A DNA stretch of 64,000 bases, from positions 62,001 through 126,000 of the forward strand of contig NZ_JARXWI010000009.1 of NCBI RefSeq assembly GCF_029893085.1, given 5' to 3'. The notes under the pieces are model-generated. The model ran no database searches, was not told the DNA's origin, and saw only the letters and a program-made list of their open reading frames with translations. This stretch comes from Parabacteroides sp. PFB2-10 (GTDB lineage: Bacteria > Bacteroidota > Bacteroidia > Bacteroidales > Tannerellaceae). Of the stretch, positions 809 through 60,983 are shown piece by piece. The translations under genes were made by a program, and so were the position numbers. The stretch's first letter is position 1. Each line of letters opens with the position of its first letter.

Positions 809-892
809 GGAAAACTTTAACAATTAATGGTAGATGAAGGCTATTCTCCTGATTTTTTTAGGCCTGAGAAAAAAATCTCAGGTGGATTAAAA

Positions 893-1061
893 TGTGTCAA
901 TTTGATCGTTTTCAGCGACCCCTCCAATTTACGATTTGTAATTTCCGCCCGACTTTGCGGGCAAAAAAGCGGGGTTTTGGAGACAAACTCCCGGGAGAAA
1001 CACTTTTTAACGTATTGATTTGTTACAAAAAAGGCCGTTTTGCTTACAATCACGATTTTGG
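893..1061 (+). repeat. Dispersed intergenic element, copy A
   Basis: Shares the core TTACGATTTGTAATTTC, the central palindrome CTCCCGGGAG (988-997), AACACTTTTTAACGTAT and a 3' hairpin (1022-1047) with four other copies in the window. This is the most diverged copy: the usual TTTGCGCGCAAA palindrome reads TTTGCGGGCAAA and the left arm of the hairpin is degraded. It lies in a divergent spacer, between pyrB and ahcY. No coding function is supported. Confidence 0.9.
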
Positions 1062-1121
1062 GAATTCATCCTCACGTACCCGAAAAAAACCGTTTTCTTC
1101 GCATCCTACGGGAGAAATCCC

Positions 1122-13062: not shown

Positions 13063-13185
13063 CACTTTCCTCCGCTTATTTCATGCCATGATGTCATTTT
13101 GCCCTGTACTTCGCTTCGCTCGTTTAGCGATTATTAATTGCTTCTGATCCTTCGGAGAAGCGAAGGCCGCTTACTAAGATGCTAA

Positions 13186-13362
13186 CAAATGTTAATTTCT
13201 CTATTTCCAACAAAATCCCCAATTTACGATTTGTAATTTCAGAGGGACTTTGCGCGCAAAAAAGGGGGACTTCGGAGACAAACTCCCGGGAGAAACACTT
13301 TTTAACGTATGGATTTGTAAGTAAAACAGACGTTTTACTTACAGTTCGTATTTTAACATTTG
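13186..13362 (+). repeat. Dispersed intergenic element, copy B
   Basis: The best-bounded copy. It starts with CAAATGTTAA (13186-13195) and ends with TTAACATTTG (13353-13362), which are exact inverted terminal repeats of 10 bp, giving a 177-bp unit. Inside are TTACGATTTGTAATTTC, the palindrome TTTGCGCGCAAA, the palindrome CTCCCGGGAG and a hairpin at 13317-13342 with an 11-bp perfect stem, GTAAGTAAAAC with GTTTTACTTAC. Compared with copy D, one stem pair has changed on both sides (C-G to T-A). Lies in a divergent spacer. Confidence 0.92.
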
Positions 13363-27982: not shown

Positions 27983-28037
27983 CCCCTATCTCCTCTTTGC
28001 TTGATGGATGGCAGGAGGGTATTTTCAGTGCAAGGTT

Positions 28038-28113
28038 ATTTGTTGGCCGAGCATGGTGAGCCAAATGGTCGACCATGCTCGGCCATTTGGTTCACCATGC
28101 TCGGCCAACAAAT
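28038..28113. repeat. 31-bp inverted repeat with a third internal copy of its core
   Basis: Left arm 28038-28068 and right arm 28083-28113 are reverse complements except for one G:T position, with a 14-base loop. The 14-mer ACCATGCTCGGCCA occurs at 28072-28085 and 28094-28107 and inverted at 28044-28057, so the left arm can pair with either right copy (14-bp or 31-bp stem). No U-tract follows on either strand. It lies between the convergent HEGGH-protein and SPFH genes. Confidence 0.9.
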
Positions 28114-28208
28114 TCTCCCAACAAAATGACACCGACAGAAATAATAATATTGTCAGAACATTGCAAATCCCGTAAATAAATAAGGGAGAAAGAGGGTGAG
28201 TCGTTACA

Positions 28209-34917: not shown

Positions 34918-36261
34918 ATGAAAACACAAAAAAAATCATCGTTGCTGACCGGTAGCGACGGGATAAACTACCTGATACCGTTTATCCTCATCACCTTCTG
35001 CTTTGCCCTATGGGGGTTTGCCAACGACATTACCAATCCCATGGTGAAAGCCTTCTCGAAGATTTTCCGCATGAGCGTGACGGATGGTGCTTTGGTGCAG
35101 GTAGCCTTCTACGGAGGCTACTTCGCCATGGCCTTTCCGGCGGCTATGTTTATCCGGAAATACTCCTATAAGGCGGGGATTCTGTTGGGCTTAGGGCTCT
35201 ATGCGATCGGCGCCTTCCTCTTCTTTCCGGCTAAAGCCATAGGCGAATACTATCCGTTTCTCTTTGCCTATTTCATTCTGACCTGCGGGCTCTCTTTCCT
35301 TGAGACAAGTGCCAACCCGTATATTCTGTCGATGGGCACCGAAGAGACGGCCACCCGAAGATTGAATCTGGCACAGTCGTTCAATCCGATGGGCTCGCTG
35401 TTGGGCATGTTTGTTGCCATGAATTTCATTCAGGCGCGACTGAATCCTATGGATACGGCAGAACGGGCATTATTGAATGAAGCTGAATTTGCAGCCGTAA
35501 AGGAGGCCGACCTGTCGGTATTGATCACACCCTATATTATTATTGGCCTGGTCATTCTGGCAATGTTCCTGTTGATCCGCTTCACCAAGATGCCGAAAAA
35601 CCAGGATCAATCGCACAACATCGACTTTCTCCCTACGCTGAAAAGGATATTCTCCCTGCCACGTTACCGGGAAGGGGTGATTGCCCAGTTCTTTTATGTG
35701 GGCGTGCAGATCATGTGTTGGACCTTTATCATTCAATACGGTACCCGCCTGTTTATGGAGCAGGGCATGACAGAAAAAGCGGCGGAGGTATTGTCGCAGA
35801 AATATAATATTGTAGCGATGATCATTTTCTGCGTCAGTCGTTTCATTTGCACCTTCCTGTTGCGCTACCTCAATCCGGGCAAATTGTTGATGATACTGGC
35901 CATGGCCGGAGGGGCTTTCACGTTGGGCGTTATCTTCTTCCAGGACATCAACGGACTCTATTGTCTGGTGGGCATATCCGCCTGTATGTCATTGATGTTC
36001 CCGACCATCTACGGTATTGCGTTGAAAGGCTTGGGCGATGATGCCAAGTTCGGTGCTGCCGGGCTTATCATGGCTATTCTGGGAGGATCAATCCTGCCAC
36101 CGCTTCAGGCTATGATCATCGATCAGGGCGTGTTGTTGGGTATGCCGGCGGTGAATCTGTCGTTCTTCCTGCCTTTTATCTGTTTTATCGTGGTAGCCAT
36201 CTACGGGCGCCGCGCATTTACAGGGTTCGGAAACCGTCTAAAATCCAAAATCGAGGTGTAA
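34918..36261 (+). CDS. fucP: L-fucose:H+ symporter
   Basis: Major-facilitator permease of 447 residues with twelve hydrophobic segments and the FucP hallmark FALWGFANDITNPMVKAFSKIF in the first helix; family motif GLSFLETSANPYI is near residue 125. Imports L-fucose, feeding FucI encoded 11 bp upstream. Its stop codon lies in the left arm of a 14-bp inverted repeat (36257-36308), and a strong terminator follows at 36334-36365. Confidence 0.95.
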   Translation: MKTQKKSSLLTGSDGINYLIPFILITFCFALWGFANDITNPMVKAFSKIFRMSVTDGALVQVAFYGGYFAMAFPAAMFIRKYSYKAGILLGLGLYAIGAFLFFPAKAIGEYYPFLFAYFILTCGLSFLETSANPYILSMGTEETATRRLNLAQSFNPMGSLLGMFVAMNFIQARLNPMDTAERALLNEAEFAAVKEADLSVLITPYIIIGLVILAMFLLIRFTKMPKNQDQSHNIDFLPTLKRIFSLPRYREGVIAQFFYVGVQIMCWTFIIQYGTRLFMEQGMTEKAAEVLSQKYNIVAMIIFCVSRFICTFLLRYLNPGKLLMILAMAGGAFTLGVIFFQDINGLYCLVGISACMSLMFPTIYGIALKGLGDDAKFGAAGLIMAILGGSILPPLQAMIIDQGVLLGMPAVNLSFFLPFICFIVVAIYGRRAFTGFGNRLKSKIEV

Positions 36262-36330
36262 GCAAGAGAGGCTGTTTTTTAGTTAAAATGGGGGTCTCTT
36301 GCTTACACCACGAATGTTAACAAATGTTTA
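36257..36330 (+). repeat. Possible degenerate 3' part of the dispersed element
   Basis: GTGTAAGCAAGAGA (36257-36270) and TCTCTTGCTTACAC (36295-36308) are a perfect 14-bp inverted repeat, then GAATGTTAACAAATG follows. This resembles the terminal hairpin (GTAAGCAAAAC) plus TTTTAACAAAT tail of the 180-bp element. The loop is longer and the core is absent, so kinship is tentative. It overlaps the fucP stop. Confidence 0.45.
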
Positions 36331-36333
36331 TCC

Positions 36334-36365
36334 GCAGGGGTTTTTCTACAAACCCCTGCCTTTTT
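36334..36365 (+). terminator. Rho-independent terminator of fucI-fucP
   Basis: GCAGGGGTTT / AAACCCCTGC stem of ten base pairs with a six-base loop, then five T residues at 36361-36365, 73 bp after the fucP stop. Confidence 0.9.
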
Positions 36366-36427
36366 CCCAATTTTCTCGCACCGAAATAGCAAAATGATAG
36401 TTTGGGATATATTTTTTTCCCCTGCAG

Positions 36428-36455
36428 AGCGACCCTTCTCAGTGTCGCTTTTTTT
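36428..36455 (+). terminator. Weak terminator-like hairpin before the DPP IV gene
   Basis: AGCGAC (36428-36433) and GTCGCT (36444-36449) with a ten-base loop and seven T residues. Just 12 bp before the DPP IV -7 box, so it would isolate that gene from upstream transcription. Confidence 0.6.
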
Positions 36456-42646: not shown

Positions 42647-42830
42647 CAAATGTTAAAATACGGATTGTAAGTAAAACACCCCCTTTTGCTTACAATCCGG
42701 TATGTTAAAAAGTGTTTCTCCCGGGAGTTTGTCTCCGAAGTCCCGCTTTTTTGCGCGCAAAGTCCTGCCGAAATTACAAATCGTAAATGGAGGGTTTCGT
42801 CAGAAATAGGCGATTTAACGTCTATTCACA
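42647..42830 (-). repeat. Dispersed intergenic element, copy C (reverse)
   Basis: The only copy on the minus strand. On the plus strand it starts with CAAATGTTAA (42647-42656), the end of the element, then the hairpin (42667-42693), CTCCCGGGAG, TTTGCGCGCAAA and GAAATTACAAATCGTAAA. One stem pair is a T-G wobble in plus-strand sense. It lies between two plus-strand genes, patB and blaI. Confidence 0.9.
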
Positions 42831-42943
42831 TTGCTATGAAGGCTGTATAGGATTGGCTGAATAGTTGCCTCTTTTCGATACAAATCTGTTAATTATTAAT
42901 AAATACAGTAGATCAACTAAAGGTAATAGTTGTTTTGTATACT

Positions 42944-54932: not shown

Positions 54933-54960
54933 AAAGAAACTATTCAGCCATTCTGCAAGG

Positions 54961-55146
54961 ATGTGAACAAACGTTAATTTGCCCGTTTCCACAAAAACCT
55001 CGAATTTACGATTTGTAATTTCGCCCCGACTTTGCGCGCAAAAAAGCGGGACTTCGGAGACAAACTCCCGGGAGAAACATTTTTTAACGTATGGATTTGT
55101 AAGCAAAACGGCCGTTTTGCTTACATTTTGTATTTTAACAAATCAA
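54961..55146 (+). repeat. Dispersed intergenic element, copy D
   Basis: Has the fully palindromic hairpin: 55099-55124 reads the same on both strands (GTAAGCAAAAC then G-T-TTTGCTTAC pairing). Other parts are TTACGATTTGTAATTTC, TTTGCGCGCAAA, CTCCCGGGAG and a left end AACAAACGTTAATTT. It lies between the convergent nuclease-fold and MATE genes, and its last 12 bases contain the MATE stop codon. Confidence 0.92.
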
Positions 55147-60334: not shown

Positions 60335-60715
60335 ATGAAGAATAACGGTTTTACCTTCCGCCGCCGCATCGCCGGTTTTAAGTATGCATTTCAAGGGCTT
60401 AAGCGTTTGTTTACCCATGAAGCCAACAGCTGGATACACGCTTTTGCGGCTGTTTGCGTGGTCGTCGCCGGTTTTCTTTTTCGTATAGCTGCCTGGGAGT
60501 GGGTGGCCGTTGTGGCCGCCATCGGGTTCGTCTTGGCTGCCGAAGCCTTCAACTCTGCCATCGAGCGCCTGGGAGATGCGATCACTGAGCAGCCAAACAA
60601 CTATATTAAACATGCTAAAGACCTGGCAGCCGCGGCCGTTCTGATCGCTGCTATCACCGCCGCGGTGATTGGACTCCTTGTTTTTCTTCCGAAACTAATC
60701 GACTGCATTTCCTAA
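60335..60715 (+). CDS. dgkA: Diacylglycerol kinase, DgkA family
   Basis: 126 residues with three predicted membrane helices (AFAAVCVVVAGFLFRIAAWEW, VAAIGFVLAAEAFNSAIE and AVLIAAITAAVIGLLVFLPKL) and the active-site motif AEAFNSAIERLGDAI. Phosphorylates diacylglycerol or undecaprenol-type lipids. Follows pdxB by 18 bp, likely the same transcript. Repeat copy E begins shortly after. Confidence 0.93.
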   Translation: MKNNGFTFRRRIAGFKYAFQGLKRLFTHEANSWIHAFAAVCVVVAGFLFRIAAWEWVAVVAAIGFVLAAEAFNSAIERLGDAITEQPNNYIKHAKDLAAAAVLIAAITAAVIGLLVFLPKLIDCIS

Positions 60716-60749
60716 GTATTGATCGCCTCCGTCGACCCATTTTCCACAT

Positions 60750-60895
60750 ACCCCCAACTTACGATTTGTAATTTCCGCGGGACTTTGCGCGCAAAAAAGC
60801 GGGACTTTAGAGACAAACTCCCGGGAGAAACACTTTTTAACGTATGGATTTGTAAGTAAAATGGGCTTTTTGCTTACAATCGACATTTTGACAAT
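60750..60895 (+). repeat. Dispersed intergenic element, copy E
   Basis: Core TTACGATTTGTAATTTC, TTTGCGCGCAAA, CTCCCGGGAG, AACACTTTTTAACGTATGG and the 3' hairpin at 60852-60877, where one pair is a T-G wobble. The outer ends are weaker than in copies B and D. Between dgkA and the ECF sigma gene, both on the plus strand. Confidence 0.88.
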
Positions 60896-60983
60896 CTTAA
60901 AAAAACGGCTTTCCCGCATAACAAAAACAAGTATCCTCCGGATAAAGTAAATGCCTTGAGATTCCTATTTGTAAACATCAGCA

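Follow-up and report, generated by a model that had tools for sequence, protein, structure and literature searches.

The window analysed here, a 64-kb stretch of DNA spanning positions 62001-126000 of contig 9 of Parabacteroides sp. PFB2-10 (labelled G000), carries six copies of an intergenic repeat (Table 1). Five of them, A to E, had been named in the initial annotation, and all five were recovered with the covariance model R1 at E values of 6e-38 to 3e-46, a match by construction given that they belong to the 101 PFB2-10 copies (alignment A1) from which R1 was built. A1 left out one of 102 copies, the right end of which is missing. The covariance-model search that the annotation had proposed was run with R1 and yielded the sixth window copy, which is outside the training set (E 1.5e-11), as well as at least 150 copies in the genome. 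Gene contexts were taken from mechanical open reading frames (longest) and comprise all three arrangements described before: tandem for copies A, C and E, divergent for B and convergent for D. The motifs said to be common to the five copies were present, with small corrections in three of them, as copy A carries the variant TTTGCGGGCAAA, copy D the variant AACATTTTTTAACGTAT, and AACGTAT is replaced by AACATAC in copy C. The core, reported as having no length change, is nearly fixed in length; a few copies differ by single-base indels within the fourth hairpin.

Table 1. Repeat copies in the window and structural parts of copy B (window positions; scores in bits, model R1)
Feature	Position	Strand	Score	Context and remarks
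Copy A	883..1066	+	171.7	Upstream of adenosylhomocysteinase gene; core, degenerate outer ends; at synteny breakpoint to PM6-13
Copy B	13178..13361	+	207.5	Between divergent genes, upstream of shikimate kinase; at synteny breakpoint
Left inverted end of B, CAAATGTTAA	13186..13195	+		
Dyad 1 of B, TTACGATTTGTAA	13224..13236	+		
Dyad 2 of B, TTTGCGCGCAAA	13249..13260	+		
Dyad 3 of B, GGGACTTCGGAGACAAACTCCC region	13265..13288	+		
Near-invariant 32 bases of B, with AACACTTTTTAACGTAT	13279..13310	+		
Dyad 4 of B, TTGTAAGTAAAAC..GTTTTACTTACAG	13313..13346	+		Long AT-rich hairpin
Right inverted end of B, TTAACATTTG	13353..13362	+		
Sixth copy	36240..36443	-	59.3	Diverged 203-bp subfamily; flanks contiguous in PM6-13, with 119 bp of other sequence there
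Copy C	42648..42832	-	197.2	Upstream of penicillinase-repressor-family gene; at synteny breakpoint
Copy D	54960..55143	+	203.7	Between convergent Exo_endo_phos-type and MATE transporter genes; at synteny breakpoint
Copy E	60713..60896	+	178.4	Core lacking conserved outer ends; flanked by genes for diacylglycerol kinase and an ECF sigma factor; at synteny breakpoint

Anatomy and hairpins of the element

Column profiles of 102 PFB2-10 copies defined a unit of 184 bp. Its right end, TTTTAACATTT, is sharply defined and its left end, AATGTnAACAAATGTTAA, less so. In Parabacteroides sp. PM6-13 (labelled G003), the closest relative by protein search (89% identity, one transporter), the conserved part is limited to ~135 bp, from about AACTATCATTTTG to TATTTT (54 copies), and the outer left end is not conserved. 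Four dyads make up the core, along with a run of 32 bases that includes AACACTTTTTAACGTAT. Non-consensus bases amount to 0.7% in these 32 columns versus 23% in the left arm (101 copies); since the 102 copies were found mainly via the motif TTACGATTTGTAATTTC, the conservation of TTACGATTTGTAATTTC results in part from row selection. The inverted ends AAATGTTAA/TTAACATTT are kept in most of the 102 copies. The exact 10-bp inverted ends annotated in copy B do exist there, but window copies A and E and some other genome copies do without them. Because some copies drop the outer ends yet keep the core, the core is considered the essential part. Singleton changes occurred at 1.86 per 1000 nt in the core and 4.74 in the left arm (2.5-fold, p = 0.046), and the strong contrast in constraint next to this small gap in singleton rate is what would be expected of selection that acts chiefly by deciding which copies multiply. 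One frame of the core is open, and protein coding was considered but rejected, as by eye the variation seems not to track codon positions. A GTAG or CGTC tag of the REP/REPIN type was not seen by eye in the PFB2-10 consensus; the same inspection showed that CGTAGGGG is common inside PM6-13 copies.

The dyads covary between subfamilies. An alignment spanning both species and the odd subfamilies contained 159 double-changed cells, compared to 92.8 ± 7.9 after shuffling (0 of 500 shuffles as high) and at most 53 with the partners slid, although the significance is overstated because this alignment was fitted to the structure and is dominated by two main subfamilies. For the PFB2-10 subfamily alone, the named four-helix structure showed no covariation beyond shuffles, and RNAalifold gave similar fold energies on either strand. 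The helix columns had no excess of G.T pairs, neither in A1 (81 G.T with 76 expected; 163 A.C with 161 expected) nor in A3 (129 G.T with 166 expected; 118 A.C with 120 expected). Since the paired changes come without a G.T (G.U) excess, dyads acting at the DNA level are preferred, and these alignments favour DNA hairpins over a structural RNA. Folded as single-stranded DNA, copy B was more stable than shuffled sequences on both strands (z -2.8 and -3.5), and so were the 203-bp type (z -3.1) and a relative from the congener G002 (z -3.7); the effect was weaker for a PM6-13 copy (z -1.8), and one distant match had no folding advantage over shuffles (z +0.95).

A structured RNA, either a multi-copy regulatory RNA or a small RNA, would account for covarying helices, a fixed core length, an invariant single-stranded stretch and the terminator-like hairpin at copy B. 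We nevertheless consider it very improbable in view of the pairing statistics above, of an Rfam gathering search of the window that returned 0 matches, and of copies lying in either orientation in divergent, tandem and convergent gaps. Around copy B one weak sigma-70-like promoter match was found, with 1.3 expected. Promoters of Bacteroides carry the box TAnnTTTG, which was not seen by eye in the element consensus. Of the structural DNA or RNA element proposed earlier, the DNA hairpins, kept by paired changes, are favoured and the RNA is not.

Copy number, relatives and insertion sites

With up to two mismatches, the motif TTACGATTTGTAATTTC occurs at 135 sites in the PFB2-10 genome (3.69 Mb, 36 contigs) and its backwards control at none, a count independent of R1. 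All of the 150 scored candidates matched R1, and the genome holds at least 150 copies, many more than the five to which the element could have been confined according to the initial annotation. On contig 1, the model was run over the initial 400 kb and returned 37 rows, which correspond to 24 separate copies and 13 reverse-strand echoes; extrapolated from these 24 copies, the genome contains about 220.

In PM6-13, R1 found 101 matches (E up to 2e-4) with lower scores, indicating a diverged subfamily. Among the other three congeners, G002 had 11 matches, all of them weak (E 0.007 to 0.96), G004 had two, likewise weak, and G001 had none. Matches to R1 occurred in 3 of 118 family genomes, and those to R2, a model of both species, in 10 of 123 (E up to 0.01), distributed over 3 of 16 genera and including six genomes from one other genus. 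Fourteen R2 loci were read by eye. Both G002 loci and nine loci from the other genus exhibit a related layout, namely a TATCAAAATGACA-like dyad and short hairpins followed by TTTTTTAAC(A/G)TAT; this layout is absent from the loci L374, L384 and L378. Judged by this arrangement, the G002 and other-genus loci, weak at 31-40 bits, are probable relatives of the element. Other Parabacteroides, Tannerellaceae and related loci were searched as well: R1 gave two matches in 54 loci (901 kb; E 0.29 and 0.78), a loose motif four matches in these loci, none with dyads by eye, and R2 a best E value of 0.0072 in 50 loci. Copy B had no match among plasmid and phage sequences. IMG/VR contained four exact 17-mer matches, the best model score of 19.6 bits (E 0.012) not being convincing, and an exact 27-mer scan of named genomes, a collection that may leave out PFB2-10 and near genomes, gave none. 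The element belongs to a hairpin-built, non-coding DNA family that expanded independently in two or more sister species of Tannerellaceae.

Flanks of up to 1.5 kb were compared between 56 PM6-13 copies and 143 of 151 PFB2-10 copies. Both flanks were common to three of the 56, a lower bound because neither copy set is complete; the tally left out an inconsistent right-flank match of L236 and matches to a separate repeat beside C5_194239. At one locus sharing both flanks, a PFB2-10-type and a PM6-13-type element stand in the same place. Single flanks were shared 29 more times, 14 times at the same element end and 15 times at the opposite end. Two diverged copies of contig 1 are common to PM6-13, namely C1 147787 and C1 32561, the latter on its left side. 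Another of the three loci sharing both flanks, PFB2-10 C5:34108, is 97-99% identical to L100 of PM6-13 (C6:233750), and may be a recent transfer since this identity exceeds that of most other compared flanks.

At three strong copies (C4_146876, C20_3644 and C14_40680) the PM6-13 flanks are contiguous without the element, the kind of site that the initial annotation had proposed to look for in related strains. Some 26-60 bp lie between the aligned flanks there, and because extra PFB2-10 sequence surrounds all three copies, none is a clean, precise empty site. The target-site duplications that were to be looked for are absent: no duplication was detected in 126 copies for lengths of 2, 3, 4, 5, 6 and 8 bp over 22 x 22 end offsets with mispaired controls, the largest excesses being small and at unrelated offsets. 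Further repeats were shared with other copies in 44 right and 29 left flanks of the 151 copies (flanks under 300 bp left out), so the intergenic regions around copies are partly mosaics. Modules following the right end in 44 of the 151 copies include a GATCTTCAA..TTGAAGAT palindrome and CCCCTTCTTAGAAAAGAAGGGG. The element motif also lies ~80-460 bases from an end of the PFB2-10 contigs C4, C13, C15, C20, C31, C6, C8 and C12, where another repeat may often stand beside the element.

The way the copies are distributed, their subfamily structure and the small number of shared sites are consistent with a mobile family of non-autonomous DNA. The annotated spread in the lineage is borne out by the high copy number, the species-specific subfamilies and the mostly different sites among the copies compared. 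The annotation as a whole is supported in part, since transposition is an inference and no movement was observed.

No autonomous relative or transposase partner of the element was found. Y1 transposase genes are present in all five genus genomes, and together with the hairpins and the absent target duplication they could point to a REP/REPIN-type repeat or an IS200/IS605-derived element mobilised by a Y1 (RAYT-like) transposase. Six Y1 loci of PFB2-10 and PM6-13 were inspected by eye (L363, L364, L368, L369, L371 and L372). An element copy lies within about 1 kb of the gene at three of them, a mild excess over the ~0.9 of 6 estimated from element density, and for this reason the Y1 genes are not dismissed entirely. 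In contrast, each of the six genes is framed by inverted palindromes of its own that differ from the element, no element copy occurs at the other three loci, at none does the element flank the gene on both sides, and G001 and G004 possess Y1 genes but no clear element copies. Given these private palindromes at the six loci read, the Y1 transposases do not stand out as partners, mobilisation by them is improbable, and the REP-like membership suggested earlier is not supported. Several REP-like systems seem to coexist in the genus.

Spacing, gene context and synteny breakpoints

The spacing of copies was an unplanned test on a pattern noticed late, with PM6-13 serving afterwards for a repetition. 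The 24 copies on contig 1 of PFB2-10 have a mean spacing of 16.5 kb, a coefficient of variation (CV) of 0.55 and a minimum of 5.3 kb. Placement in random intergenic gaps resulted in CVs of 0.91-0.98 (P 0.0004-0.0038, six variants), and none of the observed intervals was shorter than 5 kb, compared to 5.3-5.9 expected (P 0.0002-0.001, six variants). Weighting the gaps by gene orientation still left 5.5 expected (P 0.0006). In the incomplete list of 158 located PFB2-10 copies, two of 133 intervals were under 5 kb with 27.9 expected (each of 1000 simulations gave at least 16), and the CV was 0.73 versus 0.96 expected. For PM6-13, the 102 copies (101 R1 matches and one from direct search) formed 79 intervals with a mean of 38 kb and a CV of 0.535. 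None was under 5 kb (11.9 expected) and two were under 10 kb (22.5 expected), with 0 of 2000 simulations as extreme; the null was a random gap grid in which the lengths of C17, C20, C22 and C25 were assumed. The PM6-13 list derives from a PFB2-10-trained model and may be incomplete; copies missing at random would make a regular pattern appear more random rather than more regular. Direct model searches of the examined parts of PM6-13 contigs 1 and 2, which involved no candidate step, gave ten copies each at a minimum spacing of 9.5 kb.

Neighbours exclude each other in both relative orientations, with six same and eight opposite pairs under 8 kb, and none and two, respectively, under 5 kb. Weak copies tend to avoid strong ones, one lying within 8 kb where 4.1 were expected (P 0.027; 5 kb, P 0.13; 10 kb, P 0.11). 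The 13 listed copies of PFB2-10 contig 4 (251 to 289829) alternate perfectly in orientation (-+-+-+-+-+-+-). Contig 5 has long same-orientation runs, and overall 56 neighbour pairs were the same and 77 opposite (p 0.08).

Divergent gaps harbour 53 of 133 PFB2-10 copies, compared to 14 of 76 element-free PFB2-10 gaps of at least 150 bp (p 0.002). Against the same PFB2-10 baseline, the proportion was 12 of 30 in an unselected PFB2-10 sample (p 0.026) and 27 of 52 in PM6-13 (p 1e-4). An overlap with a mechanical open reading frame of at least 90 codons was seen for 28 of the 133 PFB2-10 copies and none of the 52 PM6-13 copies, all others being located in gaps.

Such regularity could also reflect a function in chromosome layout, in which every copy would serve as a marker or insulator of one chromosome segment and selection would keep one per domain, for instance as a boundary of supercoil domains or as a cruciform taking up negative supercoils where genes diverge. 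Supercoil domains of E. coli measure about 10 kb. This possible, if rather unlikely, explanation agrees with over-dispersed spacing in two species whose compared copies mostly sit at different sites, with CVs that are nearly equal between PFB2-10 contig 1 and PM6-13 despite a 2.3-fold difference in mean, with the enrichment between divergent genes and hairpins kept by paired changes, and with the tendency of weak copies to avoid strong ones. The absence of copies from G001 and the few weak matches in G002 and G004 imply, however, that the element is not required in the genus. Moreover, diverged copies are not always kept, as C1 147787 and C1 32561 are shared with PM6-13 but the window copy at 36240 is not, and a binding protein is not known.

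The window, mapped in four pieces against the PM6-13 genome, contains nine synteny breakpoints in a hand tally. Each of the five strong copies lies at a breakpoint and the weak sixth does not; among element-free gaps of at least 80 bp, 5 of 16 were broken. The hypergeometric chance of five out of five strong copies, calculated by hand without the sixth, is 0.012. At the breakpoint of copy C, the two block ends that are separated in PM6-13 each carry an element. In a larger sample that overlaps this one (PFB2-10 contig 1 and the window versus 795 kb, ~20%, of the PM6-13 genome), 13 of 15 testable element gaps were broken compared to 25 of 56 other gaps (Fisher p 0.004), where gaps with just one flank visible in the compared part count as broken. 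Gaps with both flanks visible, broken in 2 of 4 and 5 of 36 cases, respectively, were too few to decide. The high baseline of breakage itself indicates that these genomes are strongly shuffled. Other repeats were encountered as well: a palindromic one at window positions 28030-28120, in an element-free breakpoint, has many PM6-13 matches on both strands, and a ~75-bp dispersed repeat at about 33000, 53800 and 61000 has many matches in G001, G002 and PM6-13.

The association with breakpoints is what passive repeats would produce if homologous recombination between copies purged close pairs and thereby gave rise to both spacing and breakpoints. In addition, the flanks of the PM6-13 copies L103 and L134 match same-side flanks of two different PFB2-10 copies, as an exchange would give. 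Opposing observations make this explanation distinctly improbable. The orientation of the element at shared gene ends is random (14 same, 15 opposite), and among 53 mapped flanks, in a test covering 151 of some 220 PFB2-10 copies, three PM6-13 junctions reached another PFB2-10 element flank within 3 kb, one of them with the wrong ends. Because of this random orientation and the few partner junctions, homologous recombination is not regarded as the simple cause of the breakpoints. Exclusion also extends to opposite-orientation pairs, which would invert rather than delete the sequence between them: of 77 such pairs, 2 are closer than 5 kb.

Comparison with known systems and interpretation

Miniature inverted-repeat transposable elements (MITEs) are among the nearest comparisons. 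Known cases in Bacteroidota hosts are MITECca01 of Cardinium with 169 copies (PMC9769881) and BrickBuilt, a MITE of Porphyromonas gingivalis with a tandem 23-mer (PMC4596501), MITEs of P. gingivalis also being treated in PMC5771137, and the group has been reviewed (PMC10969869). Like MITECca01 and BrickBuilt, the element is under 300 bp, non-coding and mostly intergenic, amplified in a lineage-specific manner and, in most of the 102 PFB2-10 copies, provided with short inverted ends; at 184 bp and at least 150 copies it has the small size and high copy number of a MITE. Unlike these MITEs, it has no detected target duplication, treats the inverted ends as optional while conserving a multi-hairpin core, and displays strong mutual exclusion; it also lacks the tandem 23-mer of BrickBuilt.

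The REP, BIME and REPIN repeats with their RAYT transposases (PMC2817692, PMC3116915, PMC3733652) resemble the element in having more than 100 intergenic hairpin copies per genome, a species-specific sequence and mosaic neighbours. They differ from it as palindromes of 20-40 bp compared to ~135-184 bp with four dyads, and the Y1 genes of the genus are flanked by other palindromes. A literature search, with subscription journals mostly outside its range, returned no Parabacteroides element of this kind and no mutually excluding MITEs.

To our knowledge, mutual exclusion is not a recognised feature of MITEs. Non-autonomous derivatives of IS200/IS605 and of rolling-circle elements (IS91/Helitron) possess a subterminal hairpin near one end, no target duplication and a variable left end, features found here as well, although the conserved interior seems unlike such derivatives as they are generally described. 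Target immunity is a property of Tn3, Tn7 and Mu, which are large autonomous transposons. Copies of the element likewise avoid the neighbourhood of an existing copy; unlike in Tn3, Tn7 and Mu, no immunity protein or transposase is linked to it.

The best explanation, to which we assign an even chance, is a non-autonomous, MITE-like family of mobile DNA with immunity-like mutual exclusion. An enzyme acting in trans would recognise the dyads and the invariant strand and would insert further copies between genes without duplicating the target. Insertion would be inhibited near existing copies in a manner resembling target immunity, which would lead to the even spacing, and rearrangement at or near copies would follow from mobility or from fragile gaps used in common. 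The spacing was read first as an immunity-like insertion bias because immunity exists in the large transposons named above. The 2.3-fold difference in scale between the species, at nearly equal CV for PFB2-10 contig 1 and the PM6-13 list, is a poor fit to immunity of a fixed range and supports keeping a layout function under consideration. In its full form, such a function would comprise evenly spaced sites delimiting domains of ~17 kb in PFB2-10 or 38 kb in PM6-13, mainly between divergent genes, maintained at one per domain by selection and serving as seams of gene-block reshuffling, a combination that we judge unlikely.

Even spacing, breakpoint association and the enrichment between divergent genes go beyond what had been noted for these repeats. 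High-copy intergenic repeats are usually seen as scattered or clustered parasites; here they exclude one another strongly in two sister species, and this exclusion ties the repeats to an unusually fast shuffling of gene order. The family thereby offers a testable case, either of target immunity in a tiny non-autonomous element or of repeats that help to lay out the bacterial chromosome.
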